Assembly: GCF_001509585.1 (NCBI RefSeq)
Contig: NZ_LNCI01000003.1
Coordinates: 1 to 64,000, forward strand
Direction of reading: 5' to 3'
Length of the DNA stretch: 64,000 nucleotides
From: Tropicimonas marinistellae
GTDB taxonomy: Bacteria > Pseudomonadota > Alphaproteobacteria > Rhodobacterales > Rhodobacteraceae
Positions 656-14,328 of the stretch are shown here, one piece after another. Position 1 is the first letter of the stretch. Every line of letters starts with the position of its first letter. Made by a program: the position numbers and the translations under genes. The notes under the pieces were generated by a model. It was not told the origin of the DNA, ran no database searches, and saw only the letters and a program-made list of their open reading frames with translations.

Positions 656-3370
656 TCAGCTCGTGTCGGACTGGCCGTTGCGTGCGAAGATCAGGCGCAA
701 TTGCTTTTCCGTCTCCAGCAGCGCGAAGACCAGCACGCCGATGGCAACGATCAGCAATCCGTCGAAGAGCGAGACCGGGGCGGTGCCGAAGACCGCCTGG
801 AGGGGCGGCAGGTAGGTGAGGGCGAATTGAGCCGCGATCACCGTAGAGAGGCAGATCCAGAGGATCGGAGTGCCCCGCGCCGCGGCCCAGGTTACCGAAG
901 CCCCGTGGATGTTGCGGATGAAGAATAGATAGGCGATTTCGAGCACTACTAACATGTTCATCGCGATGGTTCGCGCCAGTTCGAGGGAATGGCCGGCGTC
1001 CGTTGCGTAGAAGAAGACACCGAACACCGCGCAGAGGAACAGCGTGGAGGCGAAGACGATCTGCCAGACGAGCGCGCCGGTCAGGATTGGCTGGTCGCGC
1101 CGTCGGGGCGGACGGCGCATGGTTCCGGCCTCGGACGGCTCGAAGGCGAGCGACAGCCCGAGTGTTACCGCCGTGATCAGGTTCACCCAGAGGATCTGCA
1201 CTGCGGTGATCGGAAGCGAGAGCCCGGCGAAAAGCGCCAGGGTGATCGTCATCCCTTCCGCCGCATTGGTCGGCAGCGTCCAGCTGATCACCTTGGTGAT
1301 GTTGTCGTTGACGGTCCGCCCTTCCCGGATGGCGGAGGCGATTGAGGCGAAGTTGTCGTCGGCCAACACGAACTCCGCCGCGTCCTTGGCGGCCTCGCTG
1401 CCCTTCTGTCCCATGGCGATCCCGGCATCGGCACGTTTCAGCGCCGGTGCATCGTTCACGCCGTCGCCGGTCATCGCGACGATCAGGTCACGCGACTGCA
1501 GCGCGGTCACCAGGCGCAGCTTGTGCTCGGGAGAGGTGCGGGCGAAGATATCGGTCGTGATCGCGGCGTCGGCCAGCGCGGCATCGTCCATCGCGTTGAT
1601 ATCGTTGCCCGTAAGCGCCTGCTGTACGTTCTTCAGCCCGATCCGTTCGGAGATGGCCCGCGCTGTGGCAGCGTGGTCGCCGGTGATCATCTTCACGCGG
1701 ATGCCTGCCGCGTGGCATTCGGCCACGGCCTCAATGACCTCCACACGCGGCGGATCGATCAGACCAACCAGCCCGATCAGAGTGAGATGCCCGTGAAGAT
1801 CGGCGGTGTTCAGTACGAGATGTTCCGGCTCGACGGCGCGCGTCGCCACGGCGATCACCCGCTGACCGTCGGCCGCCAAATCCTCGACCACCGCATGCCA
1901 ATGCGCCGGATCCAGGTCTTCGGCTCCGCCGTCGGGCGCGCGCTGGTCGGCGCACATCGCCAGGATCGTTTCCGGCGCGCCCTTGACGTGGATATGTGCG
2001 TGGCCCTCGTGGTCGTGATGGAGCGTCGCCATGTAGCGATGGGCCGCGTCGAAGGCGATTGCATCGGTTCTTGTCCAGAGGCGGAAGGGCTCGGCGCCTT
2101 CCTTGGTGATCTTCCCGGCCAGCGCCAGCAGCGCCCCTTCCATCGGGTCCCCCTCGACACGCCAGCCATCCGGGGCTCCGTTCAGCATTGCATCGTTGCA
2201 AAGCCCGGCGGCACGGGCGAATTCCATCAGCACCGTGTGCTCGTCCGGGCGCGCGTCGGCTTCTCGCCACTTCACGGCCCCCTCGGGCGCGTAGCCGCGG
2301 CCATCGACCGAATAGAGATGCTCGGCGGCCGCGAGTGTGGTCGCCATCATTTCGTTGCGTGTGAGTGTGCCGGTCTTGTCCGAGCAGATTACCGACACCG
2401 AGCCGAGCGTCTCGATCGCGGGCAATCGGCGCACGATGGCGTTCCGTCGCGCCATTGCCTGCACGCCAACGGCGAGCGTGATCGTGAGAACGGCCGGCAG
2501 GCCCTCGGGAATTGCCGCGACGGAGAGACCAACGACCGCAAGGAACAGGTCAGCGAAGGCCAGGTGCCGGACAAAGTAACCGAAGAGCAGCAAGCTCGAC
2601 GCCACAAGCAGGATGAACACGGTCAGCCATTTCGCGAAGATGTCCATCTGGCGGACGAGCGGCGTGGTCAGGGTCTCGACCTCGGACAGCAATCCGCTGA
2701 TCCGGCCGATCTCGGTGCCCATGCCCGTCGCGACGACGACGCCGCGCCCGGCGCCGGTTGCGACCAGCGTACCGGAGAACATCATCGAACTGCGGTCCCC
2801 CAGGGCCGCCTCGGCCGCGACAGGGCCGGTGCCCTTGTCCACCGGGACGGATTCCCCGGTCAGGATCGCTTCCTGCACCCTCAGGCCGCGCGCCTCGATC
2901 AGGCGAAGGTCGGCGGGCACCCGGTCGCCCGCCGCGAGCAGAACGATGTCGCCCGGAACCAGCCCGTCCGCGTCGATGCTGACCCGCCGCCCGTCGCGCA
3001 GAACCGCGGAGCGCAGCGCGAGCATCTCGCGAATGGCGACCATCGCGTTCTCAGCCCGCCCCTCCTGCAGGTAGCCGATCGCCGCGTTGACCAGCACGAC
3101 CGCCAGGATCACGCTGGTATCCACCCAATGCTGCAACCCTGCGGTGACGACGGCAGCGCCGATCAGGACATAGATCAGGACGCTGTGGAACTGTACGAGG
3201 AACCGCCGGAAAGCACTTCGTTTCGGTGGCTCCGGGAGGCGGTTCGGGCCATAGGTCTCGAAACGGCGTGCCGCCTCGGCGGCGGTGAGGCCATCAGCCG
3301 TCGTCCGTAGGACTTCAAAAACATCGTCCATGGATATGGAGTGGAATTGCGAACTTGCCTGTTCCGGCAT
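656..3370 (-). CDS. P2-type cation-transporting ATPase
   Basis: A 904-residue inner-membrane ion pump of the SERCA/PMCA-like P2 group, which drives cation transport by ATP hydrolysis through an aspartyl-phosphate intermediate. Visible landmarks in order are an N-terminal cation-ATPase domain (about 15-60), paired helices, the actuator motif TGES at 171-174, the membrane motif PEGLP at about 288-292, the phosphorylation motif DKTGTLT with Asp331, and the hinge motif GDGVNDAP before the C-terminal helices. The length of about 900 residues is normal. There are no N-terminal heavy-metal domains and no CPC motif, so a Cu/Zn/Cd pump is unlikely. The ion (Ca2+, Na+ or Mg2+) cannot be decided from sequence. 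The ATG at 3370 follows an AGGTGA ribosome binding site. The gene stands alone. Confidence 0.93.
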   Translation of the reverse strand: MPEQASSQFHSISMDDVFEVLRTTADGLTAAEAARRFETYGPNRLPEPPKRSAFRRFLVQFHSVLIYVLIGAAVVTAGLQHWVDTSVILAVVLVNAAIGYLQEGRAENAMVAIREMLALRSAVLRDGRRVSIDADGLVPGDIVLLAAGDRVPADLRLIEARGLRVQEAILTGESVPVDKGTGPVAAEAALGDRSSMMFSGTLVATGAGRGVVVATGMGTEIGRISGLLSEVETLTTPLVRQMDIFAKWLTVFILLVASSLLLFGYFVRHLAFADLFLAVVGLSVAAIPEGLPAVLTITLAVGVQAMARRNAIVRRLPAIETLGSVSVICSDKTGTLTRNEMMATTLAAAEHLYSVDGRGYAPEGAVKWREADARPDEHTVLMEFARAAGLCNDAMLNGAPDGWRVEGDPMEGALLALAGKITKEGAEPFRLWTRTDAIAFDAAHRYMATLHHDHEGHAHIHVKGAPETILAMCADQRAPDGGAEDLDPAHWHAVVEDLAADGQRVIAVATRAVEPEHLVLNTADLHGHLTLIGLVGLIDPPRVEVIEAVAECHAAGIRVKMITGDHAATARAISERIGLKNVQQALTGNDINAMDDAALADAAITTDIFARTSPEHKLRLVTALQSRDLIVAMTGDGVNDAPALKRADAGIAMGQKGSEAAKDAAEFVLADDNFASIASAIREGRTVNDNITKVISWTLPTNAAEGMTITLALFAGLSLPITAVQILWVNLITAVTLGLSLAFEPSEAGTMRRPPRRRDQPILTGALVWQIVFASTLFLCAVFGVFFYATDAGHSLELARTIAMNMLVVLEIAYLFFIRNIHGASVTWAAARGTPILWICLSTVIAAQFALTYLPPLQAVFGTAPVSLFDGLLIVAIGVLVFALLETEKQLRLIFARNGQSDTS

Positions 3371-3632
3371 CGATCTTCACCTGGATCGCTTGGCGTCACC
3401 GGGAGCGTCTCAAGACACAGAAATATCTAGAGGCAAACGCCTTCGATTCGACGGCTATCTTAGGACATCTGCCGCGCATCCGCCTTGATGCGGCGCAGTA
3501 TCGTGGCCAAGCCGACGCAGATTTCCGCCATGCTGAGAACCGGCGTGGAGGAGTGACGCGGTGGTGGAATATTCGCGCCGGGGACCTGGTGCCTCGGTAG
3601 CGTCACGGGGCCGAAATGCGAAACGGAACGAG

Positions 3633-3659
3633 ACCGGGTTTGACAGGACGGAACCCGGT
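3633..3659. terminator. Hairpin in the 3371-3775 intergenic gap
   Basis: ACCGGGTT (3633-3640) pairs perfectly with AACCCGGT (3652-3659) across an 11-base loop. It lies about 115 bases past the stop of the leftward TIM-barrel gene, so it may end that transcript before the ATPase gene. There is no clear T-tract, so intrinsic termination is only possible. Nothing else in the 405-base gap is recognisable. Confidence 0.45.
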
Positions 3660-3775
3660 GTCCTTGGAACTCATACGCTGTTCTGGGCCAAGGTCTTGGA
3701 GCCATCGCAACACCCACATGCGACGGCTGCCGTCTGGGGGCATTCTGCGCGGTGCGATGCGAGCGTCTGGAGGTT

Positions 3776-4600
3776 TCAGTTGGCGCCGCTTGCCGGGATT
3801 GCGCGGAGGAGCCGGCGTGTCGCGTTGATCAGGCTCGATAGCCTGCTGTCAACGTTCGCCACGGGTGCGGACCGTGCCATTGGAACTTCAATCCCGAGTG
3901 GCAGGTCCTGCGGCAGAACGCGCAGGAGCCCCGGAAGATCGATCTGACCCGCACCCGGCGGAAGGCGCGCCTCGCGTGCGGTGTGAAGGAGGTCATCGGT
4001 CGAATAGCTGGATAGAACAGGGGCATCGCAGAGATGCGCCACGCGCAACCTGTCTGCGGGGATGTCATGCAATTGGTCCAATGTGCTTGCAGATCTGTCG
4101 AAATGCAGCGCATCCACCAGAATGGCAATGTCCGGACCCGCGCGGCGCACGACGCGATACGCCGAACCGAGATCCGGAACCGGTGTCCAGGGGAAAAATT
4201 CGAGGGATACCCCGAGCCCGCGTGCAGCCGCCCTTTCCGAGAGCGCGGCAAGTGTATCGGCCAGGCGTGAAAGGTCCGGATCGTAGGGCGCGCAAATGAC
4301 CTCCCGTGCGCCAAGTTCAGCGCCCGCGTCGAGGAACGCGGACAGCGACTCCACATCCGTTTCCGGTTGGATCTTGACGAATTCGATGTCGTTCACTGTC
4401 AACCCGGTGTGCTGCAGGGCGTCTTTGGTGGCACGCATCATCCGGGTATCCTGCATCAGCGGATAGCCGGGCGACGTTTCGGTCACCCGGATCAGGCGCA
4501 GTCCCACGGCATCGAAACCGGCCCGTGCGGCCGCGTCGATCAGTTCGGGCGGGGGCAGGTCGATGGCTGTCAGATGCGCGAGGGACAGGAACCGTGTCAC
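3776..4600 (-). CDS. Sugar phosphate isomerase/epimerase-like TIM-barrel protein
   Basis: A 274-residue protein of the xylose-isomerase-like TIM-barrel (AP endonuclease 2) superfamily, whose members are metal-dependent isomerases, epimerases or dehydratases. Candidate metal ligands sit on successive strands: Glu in LEFFPW, Asp in ILVDALHF, His in VAHLCD and Glu in GIEVPM. The start is the GTG at 4600; its GTGA overlaps the TGA of the upstream flavoprotein gene, so the two are translationally coupled. It forms a two-gene operon divergent from lysR, within a shikimate/quinate-type catabolic locus that already has a dehydroshikimate dehydratase. It is therefore more likely an isomerase or a second lyase acting on the flavoprotein's product. 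The substrate is unknown. Confidence 0.85.
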   Translation of the reverse strand: MTRFLSLAHLTAIDLPPPELIDAAARAGFDAVGLRLIRVTETSPGYPLMQDTRMMRATKDALQHTGLTVNDIEFVKIQPETDVESLSAFLDAGAELGAREVICAPYDPDLSRLADTLAALSERAAARGLGVSLEFFPWTPVPDLGSAYRVVRRAGPDIAILVDALHFDRSASTLDQLHDIPADRLRVAHLCDAPVLSSYSTDDLLHTAREARLPPGAGQIDLPGLLRVLPQDLPLGIEVPMARSAPVANVDSRLSSLINATRRLLRAIPASGAN

Positions 4601-6291
4601 GGGGCGGCACCGGCAGCATGGCGCCCGGAAATGAAGCCGAATGTCAGCGCAGGCCCAAGGTTGATTCCTCCGGCCGGGTAATGCCCCCCCATGACGCTCG
4701 CCATGTCGGTGCCGGCTGCGTAGAGACCGGGGATCGGCGCGCCGCTGTCGTCCAGGACGCGGGAGTGGCCGTCGGTCTGCAGTCCGGCAAAGGTGCCGAA
4801 ATTGCCGGGGATGACACGGACGGCATAGAATGGGGCGCGTTCGATTGGCGCGAGGCAGGGGTTCGGTTGAACCTCTGCATCGCCCTGCAGGCGCATATAG
4901 GGTGTCGTTCCGCGTCCGAAGGCGTGGTCCACACCTTGCGCCACGCCGGAATTGAACTCCGAGACGGTGTCCTGCAGCCCCTTGGCGTCGATCCCGCAAA
5001 CCTGCGCGAGTTCTGACAGGGTTTTTCCGGAACTCAGGTAACCTGTTTTCAGCCAGGGCCGGATCGGCATCGGTGCGGGACGGACAATGCCGATTCCATA
5101 GCGTCGGATGAACCGGTGGTCGCAGATGAGCCAGGATTCAGGCGTCTCGTCGCCGTCCGTCGCGTCGTACAGCGCCTTGACGTAGTCGTGATAGCCCAGC
5201 CCCTCGTTGCAGAACCTCCGGCCCGATTTCAGGACCCCGATCAGGCCGGGCTTGCCGCGGTCGATAATGTGCGGGAAGACGCCCGTCTTCCCGTTCGGCC
5301 AGGTGACTTCCGACACCGGGCACCACGCACCGGGCGAGTCCAGCGTCCTCCCCTGATGCCCGCCGACGCTTTCGCCGAGGCGCAGACCGTCGCCCGACGC
5401 TGCGGGAACGGCGAGCGTGCGATGCGTTTCGGGAAAGGGAAAGGAGGCGTTCTTCCGGGCCGGGTCGTTCGGAAAGCCTCCGCAGGCCAGAATGACACCG
5501 CGGCTTGTCCTGACCGTCAGGCCTCCATCGGGGCCGGAGATGGTCGCCCCTTCGACGCCGTTCTCGCCGGTTACAAGACCGGAGATCGCGTGACCTGTCC
5601 GGATCTCCACGCCTGCATCCTTGGCGGATCGTATGAGGCGCGCGACCAGGGCGCTGCCGTTGCGAAGCTGCATGGCGCGACCGTGACGTGCGAGGTCCCG
5701 GAGATGTCGCCCCATCCTTTTCGCCACGTAGGCGGCCGACCGCACCGATCTGGTGACCGACATGAAGGCCTTGAGATCCGGCCCCGCCTGAATGGTCAGA
5801 CCCATGAAACTGGTCTCCGGTAGCGGGAGGCGCATTCGCACGATATCTGGCCCGAGTTCCCTTCCGTCGAACGGCTTGGCGATGACCGATCGCCCGCCGG
5901 TCCCGGCGCCCGGCTGATGGCCGTAGGTGTCGGGAATGTGCAGACCGGGGTCGAATTGCAGCGCTGTCTCATTCTCGAAGAAATCCACCATTTCCGGTGT
6001 TGCCGCGAGGAAGGCATCCACAAGCTCGGCGTTGAAATTGTTACCCTGGACGGCTTCGAGGTAACGCCGAGGTTCGGAGATGTCCTCGACGACGCCATGT
6101 GCCTTGGCAATCGGGTTGCAGGGCGCCCAGATCCATCCGCCGGACCAAGCGGTCGTGCCCCCGAGCACGTCGTCCTTCTCAATCAAAAGCACCTTCAACC
6201 CGTGATGCGCTGCCGTCACCGCCGCAGCGAGCCCGGCCGCGCCGGAGCCCGCGACGAGGAGATCACAGTTTTCGAACCCTTCGCTTCTCAT
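4597..6291 (-). CDS. FAD-dependent dehydrogenase, 3-ketosteroid dehydrogenase/fumarate reductase flavoprotein family
   Basis: A 564-residue flavoprotein of the FAD_binding_2 family. The N-terminus carries the dinucleotide-binding motif (VAGSGAAGLAAA, about residues 12-23), then GGTTAWSGGWIW, typical of KstD-like enzymes. The C-terminus has the second FAD contact region (YAAGTDMASVMGGHYPAGG). Relatives insert or remove a C=C bond next to a carbonyl or carboxyl group. It has no signal peptide, so it is cytoplasmic. It is first in a two-gene operon divergent from a LysR regulator, with a conserved 42-bp element about 60 bases upstream. I infer a desaturase of a saturated cyclic carboxylic acid feeding the shikimate-type pathway. 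A TcuA-like tricarballylate dehydrogenase role is less likely because a shikimate dehydrogenase and a dehydroshikimate dehydratase are neighbours. Confidence 0.88.
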   Translation of the reverse strand: MRSEGFENCDLLVAGSGAAGLAAAVTAAHHGLKVLLIEKDDVLGGTTAWSGGWIWAPCNPIAKAHGVVEDISEPRRYLEAVQGNNFNAELVDAFLAATPEMVDFFENETALQFDPGLHIPDTYGHQPGAGTGGRSVIAKPFDGRELGPDIVRMRLPLPETSFMGLTIQAGPDLKAFMSVTRSVRSAAYVAKRMGRHLRDLARHGRAMQLRNGSALVARLIRSAKDAGVEIRTGHAISGLVTGENGVEGATISGPDGGLTVRTSRGVILACGGFPNDPARKNASFPFPETHRTLAVPAASGDGLRLGESVGGHQGRTLDSPGAWCPVSEVTWPNGKTGVFPHIIDRGKPGLIGVLKSGRRFCNEGLGYHDYVKALYDATDGDETPESWLICDHRFIRRYGIGIVRPAPMPIRPWLKTGYLSSGKTLSELAQVCGIDAKGLQDTVSEFNSGVAQGVDHAFGRGTTPYMRLQGDAEVQPNPCLAPIERAPFYAVRVIPGNFGTFAGLQTDGHSRVLDDSGAPIPGLYAAGTDMASVMGGHYPAGGINLGPALTFGFISGRHAAGAAP

Positions 6292-6350
6292 CGGTGCATG
6301 AGACCTCCCCTTGCAAGCGCGTTGTCGGAAGGATCGGCACCAAAAGGCGT

Positions 6351-6392
6351 AACGTCAAATGCTTGTTTTTGACTGTTCGTAACGTGATGTTA
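6351..6392 (-). promoter_or_regulatory. LysR-type operator element, copy A (flavoprotein promoter)
   Basis: Read on the + strand: AACGTCAAAT, 4 bases, GTTTTT, 9 bases, TAAC, then GTGATGTTA. The end, TAACGTGATGTTA (6380-6392), is a near-perfect palindrome of the T-N11-A form used by LysR-type regulators. The same 42-bp layout occurs inverted at 7337-7378. Toward the flavoprotein gene, the palindrome is distal and the ATTTGACGTT segment, which holds a TTGACG -35-like box, is proximal. Confidence 0.75.
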
Positions 6393-6412
6393 ATGTGGCG
6401 AAGGAGGATCCC

Positions 6413-7339
6413 ATGCCCGACATGACGCTCAGACAAATCGAGGTGATCCGTGCCGTCATGATGACCGGCACGATCAGCGGGGCCGCGAAGATGCTCAACG
6501 TCTCGGCGCCCGGTATCAGTCGCCTCGTCAAGCACACCGAGGAATCGCTTGGCATACGGCTCTTCGAACGCAAGGCCGGTCTCTTCACGCCGTCGGTCGA
6601 GGCAAGCCGGGTCTTTGACCAGGTGCGGGAGGTCTACAAGCGGGTCGAAAACCTCCAGGTCGCGGTGGGATCGCTGCAAAAAGGGGAGGACGTTCAACTC
6701 GCCTTTGCCACGGCGCCGTCCATTGCGCAGTTCATTGCGGCGCGCGTCCTGCGACAGGTCCGCAGCCGGTATGCAGACCTGTTCGTCGATATGAACGTGT
6801 TGAAGATCGAGGAGACCGCCGACTACCTTCTTCTGGAAAGGGGGGAGTTCGTCATCATGAGTTCCGCTGTCCAGAACGATGCGGTCGAGAACGAGAAGAT
6901 CGCCGAAGGGCGGCTGGTTGTTGTCCTGCCGGAGGGACATGCGCTTGCAAGCCAGGACAAGATATCGGTGGCGGACCTTGCCGGCGAAGCGTTGATCGGA
7001 GTCGATCCGGCGGACCCCTATGGTGCCTTGCTGGCGCAACCCTTCCTCCGCGCGGGCGTTCCGCTCAACCACTCCATGCGGGGGCGGTTTGCCCAAACGG
7101 TCGTGAGCCTTGTCCGCCATGGGCTCGGGGTCGCTTTGATCGACGAGTTCTCCGTGGCGGAAGTCTACATGCCGGGGCTTGAGCGTCGCCCGTTGGCGGA
7201 TGACGTCCACGTGGGAAGCTATGTCGCGCGGAAGAAGGGACGGGTTCTGTCGGGATTCGCCGAATACACCATCAGTCAGTTTCGGCGCGAACTCGGCAAG
7301 GCGGTCGAGGACGGGCCTTGGTACCGCGCAAGAAAATAA
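6413..7339 (+). CDS. LysR-family transcriptional regulator
   Basis: A 308-residue LysR-type regulator with an N-terminal winged helix (about 4-62; recognition helix region SGAAKMLNVSAPGISRLVK) and a C-terminal substrate-binding domain that should sense a pathway intermediate. The ATG at 6413 follows a textbook AAGGAGG (6401-6407). The earlier in-frame GTG at 6395 would place that ribosome site inside the coding region, so it is rejected. The gene sits between the divergent flavoprotein operon and the co-directional tct operon. Near-identical candidate operators flank it on both sides, one before each operon, so it very probably controls both and itself. Confidence 0.93.
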   Translation: MPDMTLRQIEVIRAVMMTGTISGAAKMLNVSAPGISRLVKHTEESLGIRLFERKAGLFTPSVEASRVFDQVREVYKRVENLQVAVGSLQKGEDVQLAFATAPSIAQFIAARVLRQVRSRYADLFVDMNVLKIEETADYLLLERGEFVIMSSAVQNDAVENEKIAEGRLVVVLPEGHALASQDKISVADLAGEALIGVDPADPYGALLAQPFLRAGVPLNHSMRGRFAQTVVSLVRHGLGVALIDEFSVAEVYMPGLERRPLADDVHVGSYVARKKGRVLSGFAEYTISQFRRELGKAVEDGPWYRARK

Positions 7340-7378
7340 CATTATGTTAATGAGAATGAAAAACGGGTATTTGACGTT
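7337..7378 (+). promoter_or_regulatory. LysR-type operator element, copy B (tct operon promoter)
   Basis: The inverted copy of the element at 6351-6392 with identical internal spacing. Its palindrome on the complementary strand, TAACATAATGTTA (7337-7349), is perfect around one central base. ATTTGACGTT (7369-7378) lies nearer the target gene and includes TTGACG as a possible -35 box. The element starts at the lysR stop codon and lies about 80 bases before tctC. Confidence 0.75.
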
Positions 7379-7458
7379 AAGTTGACCAAGGGGCACAAAG
7401 AGTGACACCGCTCGCCGAGGTACTCGGCATCCATATTCGCTCTGCAGGGGAGGACACC

Positions 7459-8460
7459 ATGAAGCGAATTCTCGTAGGCGCGCTTGGCGCGTTGGCACTG
7501 ACGGCCACCGCGGCCATTGCGGAATATCCCGAGAAAGAAATCCAAGGCATCATCCAGTGGGGGGCCGGCGGGTCCACCGACACGGTGATGCGGTCCGTCA
7601 CGCCGCATGCCGAAGAGGCGCTTGGCGGCACCGTGGTCATGCAGAACATGACTGGCGCCGTGGGCGCGATTGCGCTCAACCACGTGGCGGGCTCGGCCGC
7701 CGATGGCTACACGCTGCTCATGGGCGCGGAAAACCCGATGCTCTACAAGATCATGGGGCTGGGCGACAAAGACTACGGCGAGTTCATCCCGATCTCGATC
7801 CTCGCCCGCGGCACGCCGATCCTGGTTGCCAACCCGGATGCGCCCTTCAACGACTATGCCGAGATGATCGCCCATATCAAAGAGAACCCGGGCGAGGTGA
7901 AGTTCGGCTCGACCGGGCCGGGCGGCCTGCCGTCGGTGATCAACGCGATGATCGGTGCCGTGGAAGGCGAGTTGGACGTCACCAGCGTGCCCTATGACGG
8001 CGACGGTCCGGCCCTCACCGGCTTGCAGGGCGGTGCAATCGACGTGATGCCCGCGGTGCTTGGTGCCGCCATCGAGGGCATTCGTGCCGGCAACATGAAG
8101 CCGCTGGCCGTGATGGACGTTGCGGCGAACGAGCAACTGCCGGACGCGCCTTACGTGACCCAGTTCAACGAGGCCTACAGCACCTATCTGCCGTGGGGCC
8201 CGTTCTTCGGCGTCTTCGTTCCCAAGGGCACCCCGGACGACGTGGTTGCCAAGCTGGCCGACGCCTATGCGGCTGGCGCGCAGCACCCCGATTTCGTGCA
8301 GCTGATGAACGACCGCGGCTTCACCCTGATGGGCATCTCGGGCGAGGAAGCTGACGCCTTCCTTACGAAGTGGCAGCAGGGCACGGCGTGGCTGCTGCAG
8401 GATGCGGGCCTGACGAAGGCATCGCCGGAAGAATTCGGGATCGCGCGTCCCGGAGAGTAA
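7459..8460 (+). CDS. Tripartite tricarboxylate transporter substrate-binding protein (TctC family)
   Basis: A 333-residue periplasmic solute-binding protein of the Bug/TctC family, with a Sec signal peptide (MKRILVGALGAL..., cleavage likely near TAAIA-EYPEK). The segment GGSTDTVMR matches the family's carboxylate-binding loop, and the length is typical. The ATG at 7459 follows GGGGAGGA; an earlier in-frame start at 7402 would bury the signal peptide. It is the first gene of tctC-tctB-tctA-shikimate dehydrogenase-dehydroshikimate dehydratase. The enzymes downstream indicate that the ligand is shikimate, quinate, dehydroshikimate or a similar acid rather than citrate; this is inference. A strong stem-loop follows the gene. 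Confidence 0.93.
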   Translation: MKRILVGALGALALTATAAIAEYPEKEIQGIIQWGAGGSTDTVMRSVTPHAEEALGGTVVMQNMTGAVGAIALNHVAGSAADGYTLLMGAENPMLYKIMGLGDKDYGEFIPISILARGTPILVANPDAPFNDYAEMIAHIKENPGEVKFGSTGPGGLPSVINAMIGAVEGELDVTSVPYDGDGPALTGLQGGAIDVMPAVLGAAIEGIRAGNMKPLAVMDVAANEQLPDAPYVTQFNEAYSTYLPWGPFFGVFVPKGTPDDVVAKLADAYAAGAQHPDFVQLMNDRGFTLMGISGEEADAFLTKWQQGTAWLLQDAGLTKASPEEFGIARPGE

Positions 8461-8495
8461 TCTCCCTGGCAGGCCCTCGGGCGACTGCCGAAAGC

Positions 8496-8528
8496 GGGCG
8501 CCGCATTCCTGAGCGAAGTGCGGCGCCC
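8496..8528 (+). promoter_or_regulatory. Intercistronic stem-loop between tctC and tctB
   Basis: GGGCGCCGCA (8496-8505) pairs perfectly with TGCGGCGCCC (8519-8528) over a 13-base loop, 36 bases past the tctC stop. No T-tract follows and the operon continues. It probably stabilises the tctC mRNA end or partly terminates, giving more binding protein than membrane subunits. Confidence 0.65.
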
Positions 8529-8586
8529 ATTTCATTCAGACCCAGAGCACGGCGATTCCTGGGTAATCGGTTTCGGGGAGGAAACC

Positions 8587-9165
8587 ATGCAGCACATCGA
8601 TCCTGAACATCACGACGGCACATCCGACGCCACACCAGGTGGCGAACTGGACAAGCGCCGCCCGGGCGAACTGGCCTTCGCGGCGTTCCTTCTGCTCGCA
8701 AGCCTCGGGCTTCTCTGGAGCGCCTTCGGGATCGAGAATCCCTTCGGGCCCAATGGATTGTCGTCACCCCGCTCGATACCCGTGGCGACGACGCTTGCGA
8801 TGGCCGTAGCGGCCGCGATTGTCTTCCTCACGACCGTCAGGCTGCCGCTCGACAATGCGGAGAGCTTTGCGAAGGATATTCTGCCGGGGGTCGTTCTGCT
8901 CTTCGTGGTTTTCCTTGTCGCCTATGGTCTGCTCCTGCGGCCGCTGGGCTTCCTGCCCACGTCGGCGCTGTTTCTTGTCGCCTCGATCAAGATCCTCGCC
9001 AAGCGCGGTTGGCTGTGGACGCTGGGCGTTTCGCTTGGAAGCCTCCTCGTCATCTGGCTGATCTTCCGCATCGTCTTCACGGTGCTCATGCCGGCAGGGA
9101 TCGTGCCGGAGGCCGAGTTCATCCAGTTCTTTCGTGGTCTTTCCAGCGGAGGTGCGGAGCAATGA
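8587..9165 (+). CDS. Tripartite tricarboxylate transporter small membrane subunit (TctB family)
   Basis: A 192-residue inner-membrane protein with about four hydrophobic helices (starting near FAAFLLLASLGLLW), matching the small TctB subunit that pairs with TctA. The ATG at 8587 has GGGGAGGA immediately upstream; the in-frame GTG at 8518 lies inside the preceding stem-loop and is rejected. The stop overlaps the tctA start (ATGA). The N-terminal 35 residues are hydrophilic and His/Asp-rich, slightly longer than usual. Confidence 0.88.
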   Translation: MQHIDPEHHDGTSDATPGGELDKRRPGELAFAAFLLLASLGLLWSAFGIENPFGPNGLSSPRSIPVATTLAMAVAAAIVFLTTVRLPLDNAESFAKDILPGVVLLFVVFLVAYGLLLRPLGFLPTSALFLVASIKILAKRGWLWTLGVSLGSLLVIWLIFRIVFTVLMPAGIVPEAEFIQFFRGLSSGGAEQ

Positions 9166-10676
9166 CGGCTCTCATGGACTTTCTCACTGTCGTAACCCAG
9201 CCTGATCTTCTTCTGCTCGTCGGGCTTGGCACGTTCGCCGGCGTCTACGTGGGGGCGATACCCGGTCTCTCGGTCACGATGGCGGTCTCGATCCTGATCT
9301 CCTTCACCTTCGCGTGGGACGTCTATCCGGCGATCTCGCTGATGATCGGGATCTATATGGGAGGGGTCTACGGCGGGTCGCGCACCGCGATCCTTCTGAA
9401 CATCCCCGGCGCGCCCTCGGCCATTGCCACCGCGCTCGACGGTTTTCCCATGGCTAAGCGGGGAGAGGCTGGCACCGCCATCGGCGTGACCACGGTGATG
9501 TCGTTCATCGGCGGTTTCCTGGGGATCGGCGTCCTCGCGCTGGCTGCGCCGCTCGTCTCCGATTTCGCGCTGAAATTCCAGCCAAGGGACTACATGCTGC
9601 TTGCGATCCTCGGCATCCTCCTTGTGGGGTCGCTGAGCCAGGGCAGCCTCGTGAAGGGCATCTTTGCCGGCGCGCTCGGCATCGCAATCGGCGCCGTGGG
9701 ACGTGACCCGCTGACCTTTGCCGAGCGGTTCACGTTCAACTTCCAGATCCTCGAAGGCGGGATATCCTTCATCGCCGTCATGATCGGCATGTTCGGTGTC
9801 TCGGAAGCGCTCTTGCAGCTTCACCATGTCGACAAGGACGCCGTACGGCAGAAGATCAGCCGCATCGTGCCGTCGCTGTCGACGGTAAAGAAGCACCTGC
9901 CGCTGTCGCTGCAGACCTCGGCCATCGGCGTAACCATCGGCGCACTGCCGGGCACCGGCGGCGACATTGCGGCCCTCATGGCCTATGACCACGCCAAGCG
10001 CGTGACCAAGAACCCGGAGCGCCCATTCGGCGATGGCGCAATGGAGGGGCTCGTGGCGCCCGAGACGGCCAACAACGCCGCCGTTGGCGGAGCCTTCATC
10101 CCGATGATGACCCTTGGCATCCCGGGCGATGCGGTTACGGCGATCATGATCGGCGCGCTGTTCATCCACGGCCTCAACCCCGGTCCGATGCTGATGATCG
10201 ATCAGCCCGACATGTTCTGGTTCATCGTCGGCTGCCTGGTGATGGCCAATTGCTTCATGCTGCTTTTCGGCCTGACCGGCATCAAGCTCTTCACCAAGAT
10301 TGTCGAGATGCCCCGCAGCGTGCTCATCCCGCTCATCATGCTGCTGTCCATCGTCGGCGCCTATGCGGTGAACAATGCGATTGCCGATGTTTACTGGATG
10401 CTTGGCTTTGGTATTTTCGGGTACTTCATGCGCCACTATGGCTATCCGCTCGGCCCGGTGATCCTTGGTGTGATCCTGTCGCGCCTGCTCGACGACAACT
10501 GGCGGCGGGCAATCATTTCGGAGCGCGAAGACCTCGGCGCCTTCTTCGCAGGCATTCTCACGAGCCCGCTGTCGCTGGTGCTGTTTGTCGCGGTGATCTT
10601 GATCTTCGTCTCGCAGACCCCGATTTGGGGCCGGGCCAAATCGCAGCTCTTCAAGAGGAGGGACGCCCAGTCATGA
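9162..10676 (+). CDS. Tripartite tricarboxylate transporter large permease (TctA family)
   Basis: A 504-residue permease, the main transmembrane subunit of a proton- or sodium-driven secondary uptake system fed by TctC. Family hallmarks include GAIPGLSVTMAVSIL near the N-terminus, GGVYGGSRTAILLNIPGAPSA, and a second repeat with GALPGTGGDIAALMAYDHAKR followed by TANNAAVGGAFIP. The two Gly/Pro-rich repeats suggest inverted halves. The ATG at 9162 overlaps the tctB stop, and its own stop overlaps the shikimate dehydrogenase start, so four consecutive genes are coupled or nearly so. Confidence 0.95.
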   Translation: MTALMDFLTVVTQPDLLLLVGLGTFAGVYVGAIPGLSVTMAVSILISFTFAWDVYPAISLMIGIYMGGVYGGSRTAILLNIPGAPSAIATALDGFPMAKRGEAGTAIGVTTVMSFIGGFLGIGVLALAAPLVSDFALKFQPRDYMLLAILGILLVGSLSQGSLVKGIFAGALGIAIGAVGRDPLTFAERFTFNFQILEGGISFIAVMIGMFGVSEALLQLHHVDKDAVRQKISRIVPSLSTVKKHLPLSLQTSAIGVTIGALPGTGGDIAALMAYDHAKRVTKNPERPFGDGAMEGLVAPETANNAAVGGAFIPMMTLGIPGDAVTAIMIGALFIHGLNPGPMLMIDQPDMFWFIVGCLVMANCFMLLFGLTGIKLFTKIVEMPRSVLIPLIMLLSIVGAYAVNNAIADVYWMLGFGIFGYFMRHYGYPLGPVILGVILSRLLDDNWRRAIISEREDLGAFFAGILTSPLSLVLFVAVILIFVSQTPIWGRAKSQLFKRRDAQS

Positions 10677-11524
10677 GCCAGACACCGGATCTCAAGCTTG
10701 GCCTGATCGGCGACAACATCGCGCGGTCGCGATCGCCGTTGTTGCATCGGCTCGCCGGGGCGCAGAATGACGTCAACGTCCGGTACGACAGGCTGATCCC
10801 GAGGGAAATGGGGGAGGACTTCGACACCGTTTTTGATCGCTGTGTCGGGAGCGGCTATCGCGGCATTAACGTGACCTATCCCTATAAGGAGCATGTGGCG
10901 CGCAAGGTCGTCATCGATGACCCAACCGTCCGGGCAATCGGCGCCGTGAATACGGTGTTGTTCGACGCGGATGGCGCCAGGGGCAAGAACACCGACTACA
11001 CGGGGTTCATCGCGGCCTATCGTGGCGCCATGGGCGCGGAAACGCCCGGTGTCGTTTGCCTCATTGGCACAGGGGGCGTCGGGCGCGCCCTCGCGTTCGG
11101 CCTCGCGGCGCTCGAGGCGGACGAAATCAGGCTTGTCGACCGGGACGACGCGAAGGCGCGTGCGACGGCGGAGGACCTGAGAAATCTCCCCAATGCACCC
11201 AGTATCAGCGTCTTCGCCGATGCGAGTGAGGCTGCGCGGGGGGCGACCGGCCTCCTGAACGGAACACCTGTCGGCATGGTTGGCCACGATGGCACGCCAT
11301 TGCCGCGCGGGGCAATGGAGGGAGCCAGGTGGGCGTTCGACGCTGTCTATACGCCGGTCGACACGGAGTTCCTTCGGGACGCCGAGGCGTCCGGACTGAC
11401 CGTCATCTCCGGGGAAGAGCTGTTCATCTATCAGGGGATCCATGCGTGGACCCATTTCTCCGGACTGCCGCTGGACGAGACGCGTTTGCGGGCCGCATTG
11501 TTGGAACATGGAGAAGCAGCGTGA
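10673..11524 (+). CDS. Shikimate/quinate dehydrogenase, AroE/YdiB family
   Basis: A 283-residue NAD(P)-dependent dehydrogenase interconverting shikimate and 3-dehydroshikimate (or quinate and 3-dehydroquinate). Visible motifs are the substrate loop SRSPLLH near residue 18, the catalytic lysine in NVTYPYKEH, the Asp in NTDYTGF, the nucleotide-binding GTGGVGRA and the closing NGTPVGM. Its place inside a transporter and dehydroshikimate dehydratase operon indicates a catabolic paralogue (QuiB/YdiB role) rather than the biosynthetic AroE. The ATG at 10673 overlaps the tctA stop (ATGA) after a strong AAGAGGAGGGA. Its stop overlaps the next gene's GTG. Confidence 0.92.
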   Translation: MSQTPDLKLGLIGDNIARSRSPLLHRLAGAQNDVNVRYDRLIPREMGEDFDTVFDRCVGSGYRGINVTYPYKEHVARKVVIDDPTVRAIGAVNTVLFDADGARGKNTDYTGFIAAYRGAMGAETPGVVCLIGTGGVGRALAFGLAALEADEIRLVDRDDAKARATAEDLRNLPNAPSISVFADASEAARGATGLLNGTPVGMVGHDGTPLPRGAMEGARWAFDAVYTPVDTEFLRDAEASGLTVISGEELFIYQGIHAWTHFSGLPLDETRLRAALLEHGEAA

Positions 11525-13410
11525 AGACCTCCATCGCAACCGTCTCGATTTCCGGCAACCTGCGAGAGAAGCTCGAGGCGATCGCCAAGGCCGGGTTCAC
11601 GGGGATCGAGATATTCGAGCAGGATTTCATCGCCGATACCGGCACACCGCGGGAAATCGGACAATTGATCCGCGATCAGGGGTTGGACATCACCCTGTTC
11701 CAGCCGTTCCGGGATTTCGAAGGCCTGACCGGTGCGTTGCGCCAGAAAGCGTTCGACCGGGCGAAGTACAAGTTCGACACGATGAACGAGCTTGGAACCG
11801 ATCTGATCCTCGTCTGTTCCACGGTGCATCCGCAGGCGCTTGGCGGCATCGACCGTTCGGCGGATGATTTCGCCGAGCTTGGCGACATTGCGCGGCAGCA
11901 GGGTATCCGGGTCGGCTTCGAGGCGCTGGCCTGGGGGCGGCACGTGAACGACCACCGGGACGCCTGGGAAATCGTGCGCCGGGCCGATCACCCGAATGTC
12001 GGCCTGATCCTCGACAGCTTTCACACGCTTGCGCGCAAGATCGACCCGAATACGATCCGGCGCATTCCGGGTGACAAGATCTTCTTTGTCCAGCTGGCCG
12101 ATGCGCCCCTGATCGACATGGACCTTCTCTACTGGTCGCGGCATTTCCGGAACATGCCCGGCGAGGGCGATCTGCCGGTGACGGATTTCATGCGGGCTGT
12201 CGCCGCGACCGGATATGACGGACCGGTCAGCCTGGAGATCTTCAACGACCAGTTCCGGGGCGGGCACCCGGAGGGGCTGGCGCGGGACGGCTACCGGTCC
12301 CTCGTGGCGCTGATGGATGACGTGCGCCGGGCGGAGCCGGACATCCGGATCGACGTGCCCGAGATCCCGGCGCGTGTCGGCGTCGAGGGCGTCGCCTTCG
12401 TCGAATTTGCCACCCGGGGTGCCGAGGCCGACGCGCTCGCGTCCCTGCTCCGGTCGATGGGGTTCACCCATGTTGGCGATCATGTCTCGAAGAAAGTGGC
12501 GCTCTGGCAGCAGGGCGATATCCGCATTGTCCTGAACACCGAAACCAGCGGCTTCGCCAATTCCGCCTACATCATGCACGGAACGACGATCTGCGATGTG
12601 GGGCTCTCGGTCGCCAACGCCGCCGACACGACATCCCGCGCCCTGGCTCTGGCCGCCGCCCCGTTCCGTCAACCCGTGGACCCCGGCGAACTGGATATCC
12701 CGGCGATCCGCAGCGTTGGCGGCAGTGTCATGCATTTCATCGACAAGGACAGCGGGTTGGCGAATGTCTGGTCGGTGGAGTTCACGCCGACAGGCGCCGA
12801 GGTGCGCGGGGACGCTGGCCTGACCACGATCGACCACGTGGCCGAGACGATGAAATACGACGAGATGCTCAGCTGGTCGCTCTTCTATACCTCAATCTTC
12901 GACATGACCCGCGCGCCGATGGTCGACGTGATCGACCCCGATGGGCTGGTTCGCAGCCAGGCGATCAGCGCGCGCAATGCGGAGTTGCGGATCACGCTGA
13001 ACGGCGCGGAAACCCATCGGACGCTCGCCGGGAGTTTCCTTGCCGAGAGCTTCGGGGGCGCCGTTCAGCACGTGGCCTTCTCGACCCGTGACATCTTCGA
13101 GACGGCGCGGAAGATGCGGGACTTCGGTTTCGCGGCGCTTGAAATGCCGGTGAATTACTACAGCGACCTGCGCGCCCGGTTCTCGCTGACGCCGGAAAGG
13201 CTGACCGAACTCGAGGATCTGAATATCCTCTATGACGAAGACGCCGACGGGGCGTTCTTTCAGCTCTACAGTCGGCCTTTCGCGGGCGGGCTCTTCTTCG
13301 AGATCGTACAGCGCGTGGAGGGCTACGACGGATATGGCGCGCCGAACGCACCGTTCCGCATTGCCGCGCAGAAGCGGCTGGGGCGCCCGAAAGGCATGCC
13401 GAAGCGCTAG
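11521..13410 (+). CDS. quiC1: 3-Dehydroshikimate dehydratase, QuiC1-type fusion with HPPD-like domain
   Basis: A 629-residue two-domain protein that converts 3-dehydroshikimate to protocatechuate. Residues about 1-285 are a xylose-isomerase-like TIM barrel. With the GTG start at 11521, the metal ligands fall at Glu134, Asp165, Gln191 and Glu239, the positions I recall for Pseudomonas putida QuiC1, which supports this start. Residues about 290-625 resemble 4-hydroxyphenylpyruvate dioxygenase (VOC fold), with candidate ligands His in TIDHVAE, His in QHVAFST and Glu in LFFEIVQR. The GTGA overlap couples it to the shikimate dehydrogenase gene. No protocatechuate ring-cleavage genes are in this window, so the product must be used by enzymes encoded elsewhere. 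Confidence 0.93.
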   Translation: MKTSIATVSISGNLREKLEAIAKAGFTGIEIFEQDFIADTGTPREIGQLIRDQGLDITLFQPFRDFEGLTGALRQKAFDRAKYKFDTMNELGTDLILVCSTVHPQALGGIDRSADDFAELGDIARQQGIRVGFEALAWGRHVNDHRDAWEIVRRADHPNVGLILDSFHTLARKIDPNTIRRIPGDKIFFVQLADAPLIDMDLLYWSRHFRNMPGEGDLPVTDFMRAVAATGYDGPVSLEIFNDQFRGGHPEGLARDGYRSLVALMDDVRRAEPDIRIDVPEIPARVGVEGVAFVEFATRGAEADALASLLRSMGFTHVGDHVSKKVALWQQGDIRIVLNTETSGFANSAYIMHGTTICDVGLSVANAADTTSRALALAAAPFRQPVDPGELDIPAIRSVGGSVMHFIDKDSGLANVWSVEFTPTGAEVRGDAGLTTIDHVAETMKYDEMLSWSLFYTSIFDMTRAPMVDVIDPDGLVRSQAISARNAELRITLNGAETHRTLAGSFLAESFGGAVQHVAFSTRDIFETARKMRDFGFAALEMPVNYYSDLRARFSLTPERLTELEDLNILYDEDADGAFFQLYSRPFAGGLFFEIVQRVEGYDGYGAPNAPFRIAAQKRLGRPKGMPKR

Positions 13411-13420
13411 CCGGGATGGA

Positions 13421-13603
13421 ACGCCGATCACACGGTGGCGCGGGGCGGCCGGCCCCGGGACGCACCCGAGCCTCCCGTTATGCCGGAGGCGGGCTTTCGT
13501 CACGACGAGGGCGTACTGCGACGGTGCAAGGAGTGCGGCCGTTGGAATAGGGGCGGCACGCCGATCACAGGATGGCGCGGGGCGACCAGCCCCGGGCCGC
13601 GCC
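13421..13603 (+). repeat. Direct repeat pair of about 47 bp
   Basis: Two copies of a GC-rich unit (13421-13467 and 13558-13603) share ACGCCGATCACA, GGCGCGGGGCG and the GCCCCGGG core with a few differences. Each holds a small inverted repeat around GCCCCGGGC. They follow the dehydratase stop by 11 bases and lead into the repeat unit at 13654. A related GACCAGCCCGGGCCGCGCCC occurs at 28444-28463. No coding potential is seen. Confidence 0.65.
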
Positions 13604-13653
13604 CGCTTCGTCAGGCTTTCGCGGCCCCACCGGGGCCACGGTCCCTCCTCAGT

Positions 13654-13769
13654 CCCCCCGGGAGGGCGCATTGGCGATGTCGAGAAGCGTTCAGACGTCG
13701 GTCGGGGCTTTGGGATAAAGCGCGTTGAATTGGCGGTGCGAAGCGCCCACCCAGGGTCGGGCGCGGTCC
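13654..13769 (+). repeat. Dispersed intergenic repeat, copy 1
   Basis: About 116 bp matching the copies at 28471-28586 and 28641-28761. Shared blocks in order are CCCCGGGAGGGCGC, TTGGCGATG, GGCTTTGGGATAAAGCGC, and GCCCACCCAGGGTCGGGCGCGG. It lies directly upstream of a low-GC orphan gene. The function is unknown; it looks like a non-autonomous GC-rich chromosomal repeat. Confidence 0.7.
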
Positions 13770-13861
13770 TACGCAAAACGTCGAATGCGTACTTTCCGAA
13801 GTGACACTTCTTCTCAAAATGTCCATGACTTGAGTGCGTAAGATGTAAAGGGGTGAAGTGT

Positions 13862-14328
13862 ATGCAAGTTGCGAAACTAATTCTGTCTGATTGTAGGGCA
13901 GGATTGCATTTGTTGGAAGATACGGACACGCCACAATTGCGTCGTGTAATCTGGGTTGGAGTAATCACAATGCTCCGAACTATAGGTGATGCACTAGATC
14001 GGAGTTCGAATCGTTTCGTTAGACAGGAGTATCAGCGACGGATTTTGGACTGGAAAGCGGAGCCGAAAGGCACTTCCATATGGAGAGACTTCATCAATCA
14101 AGAGCGAACAAATATTGTCCATGAATACGTACACGGCACGTTCCAAGGGGAAGCACTACGGTTGTTGATTGAAGACGGCCAAGGGAGTACCTTCACAGAT
14201 ATTGATGCAGATGTTTACTGGCCGTTGCTCGGCGGCCCATTTGCCGGAATGGATGCTAGAGACGCTGCTGGTGAAGCCATCAAATGGTGGGAACTCCAAA
14301 TCGAAGAAATCGACGATTTGTCCCGTGA

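Follow-up and report, generated by a model that had tools for sequence, protein, structure and literature searches.

Two inverted copies of a 43-bp element bracket a lysR-type gene in the 64,000-nucleotide stretch of Tropicimonas marinistellae DNA that was analyzed here (positions 1 to 64,000 of contig NZ_LNCI01000003.1; hereafter, the window). Taken together, the sequence comparisons leave us with little doubt that these elements would be the operator-promoters of the LysR regulator encoded between them, and that they would control both neighboring operons, namely a leftward flavoprotein–TIM-barrel operon and a rightward tctCBA–aroE-like–quiC-like operon. An earlier sequence-only reading of this DNA had proposed that the elements look like a recognition site plus an activation site for a single LysR protein; their conservation, their co-occurrence with the regulator and their geometry relative to a −35/−10 signal all support that proposal, with DNA binding and activation being the predicted part of it.

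The element pair and the genes around it

The longest inverted repeat between positions 6001 and 7700 is 43 nt long, with arms at 6350–6392 and 7337–7379 that are 74% complementary. Copy 1 (6350..6392, plus strand) lies between the flavoprotein gene and lysR and faces the flavoprotein operon on the minus strand, copy 2 (7337..7379, minus strand) faces the tct operon on the plus strand, and both are conserved in orthologues. The two can be written as TAACGTCAAAT-N19-TAAC-N5-GTTA, i.e., they share a common framework of fixed bases at fixed spacing rather than letter-for-letter identity. Thus, where the sequence-only reading spoke of an identical 42-bp element in inverted copies, the positions and opposite orientation stand, the identity gives way to a 74% likeness, and the length grows by one base at the TAAC end. 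The other particulars of that description are borne out: the internal spacing is common to both copies, each has a distal T-N11-A palindrome and a proximal TTGACG-containing block, and one copy faces each operon. A strict pattern built from the description, one base longer, matches both window copies without mismatch and, with up to three mismatches allowed, is found twice in the window versus never in 100 shuffles. In relatives, its central GTTTTT is generally not kept, and the middle of the element shows just a weak A-rich trend on the target-sense strand; hence, the pattern containing it was dropped as the definition of the element in favor of a reduced 19-base pattern. With up to three mismatches, the latter finds exactly the two window sites in the entire genome of 5,418,455 bases (41 contigs), and its reversed control finds none in the same genome at the same threshold.

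An inverted pair that brackets a gene, with one copy overlapping the stop codon of that gene, might also be a mobile or structural repeat devoid of regulatory meaning, such as a MITE-like pair, a terminator or an RNA element. Against this, the genome holds just two copies at up to three mismatches, the region 3000–14000 has no Rfam match above the gathering score, and terminator-like sites are absent at both elements. On copy number and on the Rfam and terminator searches, we reject a mobile repeat, an RNA element and a terminator alike, and give this explanation practically no credence.

The gene between the copies (6413..7339, plus strand) encodes a 308-aa regulator with both hallmark domains of LysR-type proteins at scores above their cut-offs, namely HTH_1 (PF00126, E 3.1e-13) and LysR_substrate (PF03466, E 7.4e-27), and its closest solved sequence is CysB (E 3e-13). 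The helix-turn-helix region (residues 1–64) is better conserved than the effector domain, with a mean major-residue frequency of 0.86 vs 0.77. To the left, on the minus strand, lie the genes for a FAD-dependent oxidoreductase resembling KstD and 4-oxocyclohexene-carboxylate dehydrogenases (4597..6291) and for a xylose-isomerase-like TIM-barrel protein (PF01261; 3776..4603) that is weakly QuiC-like. The flavoprotein has PRK06134 as its best NCBIfam model (799 bits vs a cut-off of 747), a weaker relation to 4-oxocyclohex-2-ene-1-carboxylate 5-dehydrogenase that falls under the cut-off of that model, and 3-oxosteroid 1-dehydrogenase as its nearest solved sequence (E 3.6e-84). To the right, on the plus strand, are tctC, coding for the solute-binding protein of a tripartite tricarboxylate transporter (7459..8460), tctB (8587..9165), tctA (9162..10676), an aroE-like gene of the shikimate dehydrogenase family (10655..11524) and a gene for a quiC-like 3-dehydroshikimate dehydratase combining a TIM barrel with an HPPD-like domain (11506..13410). 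The QuiC-like protein matches NF042435 over its full length at 647.6 bits, under the NCBI cut-off of 1200, and its best solved relative is PDB 5hmq (E 2.3e-173). A second QuiC-like gene (612.9 bits) is encoded elsewhere in the genome (L117, G000:C12:323985-325850), with no element within three mismatches there.

Site anatomy, probable promoter geometry and conservation at orthologous loci

In both window copies, the palindrome is TAAC-N5-GTTA, which has the T-N11-A form of LysR-type operators. That of copy 1 (6380..6392) ends 20 bp before the lysR ATG, and its proximal, activation-type block ATTTGACGTTA (6350..6360, minus strand) contains TTGACG (6358-6353), the likely −35 of the flavoprotein operon, followed at 17 bases by a candidate −10, GATCCT (6330..6335, minus strand), which is the position favored in the aligned sites. 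The recognition-type palindrome of copy 2 (7337..7349) has the lysR stop codon as its first three bases, and its proximal block (7369..7379, plus strand) likewise contains TTGACG (7371-7376), the likely −35 of the tct operon; here the hexamer 17 bases on, CACAAA (7394-7399), is a poor −10 without a T at its last position. The opening of the copy 2 palindrome with the stop TAA (7337-7339) recurs, by position, in 9 of the 80 orthologous loci described below.

For comparison across genomes, we used the best 80 of 109 confirmed orthologous loci, found with the LysR protein in named genomes and 61–86% identical. From these, we derived a profile of 58 upstream and 68 downstream sites with at most three mismatches and complete flanks, identical stretches being counted once and the window included. 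Read with the target to the right, it consists of TAAC-N5-GTTA, 19 bases and ATTTGACGTTA, the bases between and outside these being mostly weakly conserved. The 19-base spacer is found in 124 of the 160 flanks and in none of the shuffled flanks; other spacers (12, 13, 14, 22, 24 and 30) account for 28 region matches in the 80-locus set. The exact palindrome occurs 119 times in the 982,352 bases of these loci, all but one inside called elements (118/119).

The aligned sites also point to a promoter. Among the 58 upstream sites, NAnnnT lies 17 bases past the end of TTGACG in 28 and 18 bases past it in 11; among the 68 downstream sites, the corresponding counts are 31 and 18. The remaining tested distances (9–32) give counts between 0 and 8. 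As the 17-base distance is the most frequent, TTGACG is probably the −35 hexamer of the target promoters. A general sigma-70 promoter scan returned no promoter in 6200–7600, so the case for the −35/−10 pair comes entirely from the aligned sites. If transcription starts about 7 bases beyond the favored −10-like hexamer, the palindrome would be centered near −63, with the proximal block spanning about −37 to −27. Further, the right half of the palindrome, GTTA, is found again in ATTTGACGTTA at a distance of exactly 30 bp, or about three helical turns; one possible reading of the second site is as a half-degenerate palindrome copied from the first. A T-N11-A site near −65 with further contacts downstream to the −35 region is the LysR arrangement as given in the available portion of PMC4834489; the position of our element relative to the −35/−10 pair, as judged from the alignment, fits a LysR recognition site together with an activation site lying on the −35 box.

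The element follows its targets. The picking of ORFs by length and GC3 mislabels some neighbors; hence, the counts of loci use protein matches of more than 50 aa within 600 bp as targets, and matches with at most three mismatches of 19 as sites. A downstream target is a TCTC-, AROE- or QUIC-type match that starts on the same strand no more than 600 bp away, and an upstream target is a divergent FLAV, ISO, QUIC, shikimate-dehydrogenase-family or MFS gene, the label ISO denoting a QuiC-type gene in L014, L049, L065 and L079 and a real TIM-barrel gene in L050. By these definitions, the downstream site is present in 67/67 loci in which a target follows and in 0/13 in which it does not, one of the latter (L058) having a locus sequence that ends 5 bp after lysR. 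Where a divergent target-type gene is present, 53 of 54 loci have the upstream site, as against 4 of the 26 loci that lack such a gene; five of these upstream targets were added by hand (L062, L068, L075, L078 and L055), and leaving them out gives 48/49 and 9/31. The single miss (L065) has a degenerate copy with five mismatches before its divergent quiC-type gene. The associations of site and target have Fisher p-values of ~1e-14 over the 80 loci, values that overstate independence because the loci are related to one another and are not independent tests. One of the two observations that the sequence-only reading had named as its own undoing, a lack of conservation at orthologous loci, came out the other way: the element is conserved there and follows the target operons.

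At up to three mismatches there are 128 matches (67 downstream, 57 upstream and 4 elsewhere). The counts do not include a further 25 matches at four or five mismatches, of which 21 overlap called elements, 18 of them being the same 43 bp read in the opposite direction, and shuffled sequence gave four matches at five mismatches.

The site is also kept where the identity of the target changes. It is retained downstream of lysR when an aroE-like or quiC-like gene takes the place of tctC (L014, L019, L051 and L079), and in L051 a three-mismatch site precedes the tctC that sits behind quiC. Upstream, it is present with a divergent quiC-like gene (L049 and L052), with a divergent gene of the shikimate dehydrogenase family (L062, L068, L075 and L078), and in L055, where the divergent gene was read as an MFS transporter with a shikimate-dehydrogenase-like ORF behind it; all seven of these loci are without a downstream site. 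In L022, the flavoprotein–TIM-barrel pair lies upstream in the direction of lysR, and an exact element (3163-3205) stands before the flavoprotein gene, with no upstream site at lysR itself. Extra sites with one mismatch each in L052 (3395-3437) and L075 (8453-8495) mark possible further members of the regulon.

Several loci depart from this pattern. Four upstream sites face no recognized target (L006, L021, L026 and L034); in two of them (L034 and L006), the palindrome is exact and the proximal block has three mismatches, and both look like stranded remnants. In L006 (1-754), the flavoprotein is absent upstream of lysR and the partly decayed element is kept beside the apparent start of an IS3-type transposase. 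Six of the 80 loci have no site within three mismatches on either side of lysR (L054, L056, L058, L065, L071 and L081). In three of these (L054, L056 and L071), FLAV and ISO relatives with 40–50% identity lie upstream in the direction of lysR and no exact palindrome occurs anywhere in the locus, so their LysR may use another, changed operator. In L081, a single palindrome at 4032 stands a short way in front of a quiC-type gene, and its proximal block is imperfect. In L069 and L080, the FLAV match ends ~0.9–1.0 kb upstream of lysR and no element within three mismatches precedes FLAV.

The location of copy 1 raises the question of whether it might primarily serve autoregulation of lysR, with copy 2 being a by-product or decayed duplicate. 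Its palindrome ends close to the lysR start, at the distance given above, and many LysR regulators repress themselves from sites at such positions, according to the available portion of PMC4834489. However, of the 23 loci whose upstream site is not complete, none has an exact palindrome in the 200 bp before lysR, and two have one with a single mismatch. Moreover, it is the downstream copy that is better conserved, with mismatch-free sites in 49/67 downstream vs 17/57 upstream instances. The first of these counts speaks against copy 1 serving mainly for autoregulation, which we regard as highly improbable; self-repression of lysR in addition to control of the targets is possible.

Co-occurrence of element and regulator across the family and class

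A different explanation accepts the elements as real operators and assigns them to another regulator encoded elsewhere, with the adjacent lysR being incidental. What speaks for it is that the sites go with the operons and not with lysR itself, so that being adjacent does not in itself prove that LysR and element belong together. With at most one mismatch, the element is found in 23 of 295 genomes of the family, that of T. marinistellae included, at 39 places, two of which are those of the window; the reversed control is found in none of the 295. A search for the LysR in these 295 genomes gives matches of E 1e-75 or better in 26, 24 of them at ≥59% identity and two at 43–47%. All 23 element-bearing genomes are among these 24, and the single genome of the 24 without an element within one mismatch (G175) has a LysR of 68% identity. 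The two genomes with the distant LysR have no element within one mismatch, and G007, the sole further member of the genus in the family draw, has neither LysR nor element. In a class-wide draw of 385 genomes, the element is found in the own genome only. This co-occurrence, along with a predicted geometry (a T-N11-A palindrome near −63 and contacts at the −35 box) that matches the LysR pattern in the available portion of PMC4834489, leaves control by another regulator as an improbable alternative, if a less remote one than a repeat or autoregulation.

The family-wide sites provide further evidence for control of the flanking operons by this LysR. We fetched the loci around 29 of the other 37 places (L083–L111), and in 28 of the 29, the center site lies directly before FLAV, TCTC, AROE or QUIC, a constancy of position that also argues against a mere repeat. 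The exception (L096) has a center site that is letter for letter that of L021. In one genome (G222; L094 and L111), FLAV and TCTC genes diverge from two elements that lie between them, an interval in which there is no LysR match; the LysR of this genome is encoded on a different contig (C83) and is followed 48 bp on by a third site. Another genome (G005) has an extra element before an aroE-like gene on a separate contig.

A predicted catabolic regulon and its known relatives

The targets include shikimate dehydrogenase-like and 3-dehydroshikimate dehydratase-like genes, as would be expected of a shikimate/quinate regulon, and on the basis of their encoded domains, the two operons probably serve the uptake and degradation of compounds resembling shikimate or quinate. 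A protocatechuate dioxygenase beta-family match above its cut-off is also present in the genome, and the PQQ dehydrogenase family TIGR03074 has no match in it, a combination that fits import followed by cytoplasmic oxidation to protocatechuate as the predicted pathway. Briefly, we advance the following mechanism. The regulator, which is expected to be a tetramer, would place one pair of DNA-binding domains on TAAC-N5-GTTA, the recognition site near −63, and the other on the half-palindrome GTTA of ATTTGACGTTA, the activation site carrying the −35 TTGACG, 30 bp away. Binding of a shikimate/quinate-type effector would then change this grip and help RNA polymerase to start transcription, leftward of the flavoprotein–TIM-barrel operon and rightward of the tct operon. 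The Tct transporter would import a shikimate/quinate-type compound, the AroE-like protein would oxidize it, and the QuiC-like protein would dehydrate 3-dehydroshikimate to protocatechuate.

More tentatively, and with slightly less than even confidence, we suggest that the regulon is a hitherto undescribed one of the shikimate/quinate type in Rhodobacteraceae, with the flavoprotein–TIM-barrel pair constituting an unrecognized branch of alicyclic acid catabolism tied to it by the shared operators. For example, the flavoprotein might carry out FAD-dependent desaturation or aromatization of a cyclohex(en)one carboxylate and thereby supply the QuiC/protocatechuate route. The sequence-only reading held that the element pair defines a two-operon regulon without experiments; the two sites and two operons are supported for this genome, and "predicts" is the more apt verb. 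What emerges is a highly specific predicted operator for one LysR, with regulator, sites and targets co-varying across a bacterial family. It brings an uncharacterized flavoprotein and a Tct transporter, and in relatives, shikimate-dehydrogenase-family and MFS genes, into a predicted regulon whose substrate and effector become directly testable.

We did not find this regulon described in the open-licence literature that we covered, including the available portions of PMC4834489, PMC5343134, PMC11739112 and PMC13253662. The QuiC-type dehydratases (NF042435; 5hmq) have a full-length relative here, with a score under the 1200-bit cut-off and a dehydratase activity that is predicted from sequence.

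The LysR type also includes known regulators of shikimate/quinate catabolism, namely QuiR of Listeria and QsuR/ShiR of Corynebacterium, which are encoded beside shikimate-dehydrogenase-like and 3-dehydroshikimate dehydratase genes. Unlike these, which come from other phyla, the present system has a Tct transporter, and the likeness to them is one of gene context.

In its mechanism, the system would be of the standard LysR type, an ordinary kind of bacterial gene switch that differs slightly from the standard in the strong conservation of its second site and in the placement of the operator of its second target at the lysR stop codon. As in the general LysR model and the ThnR promoters, so far as the available portion of PMC4834489 describes them, there is a T-N11-A palindrome, with a predicted position near −63 and a predicted second contact region at the −35 box, a divergently read target lies beside the regulator gene, and one regulator would have more than one target. 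The second site is non-conserved in that description, whereas ATTTGACGTTA is nearly invariant here, presumably because it combines a half-site and the −35 hexamer in one. Likewise, in distinction to ThnR and the general model as presented in the same portion of PMC4834489, the predicted second target of the present regulator lies downstream of lysR, with its operator at the stop codon of the regulator gene itself.
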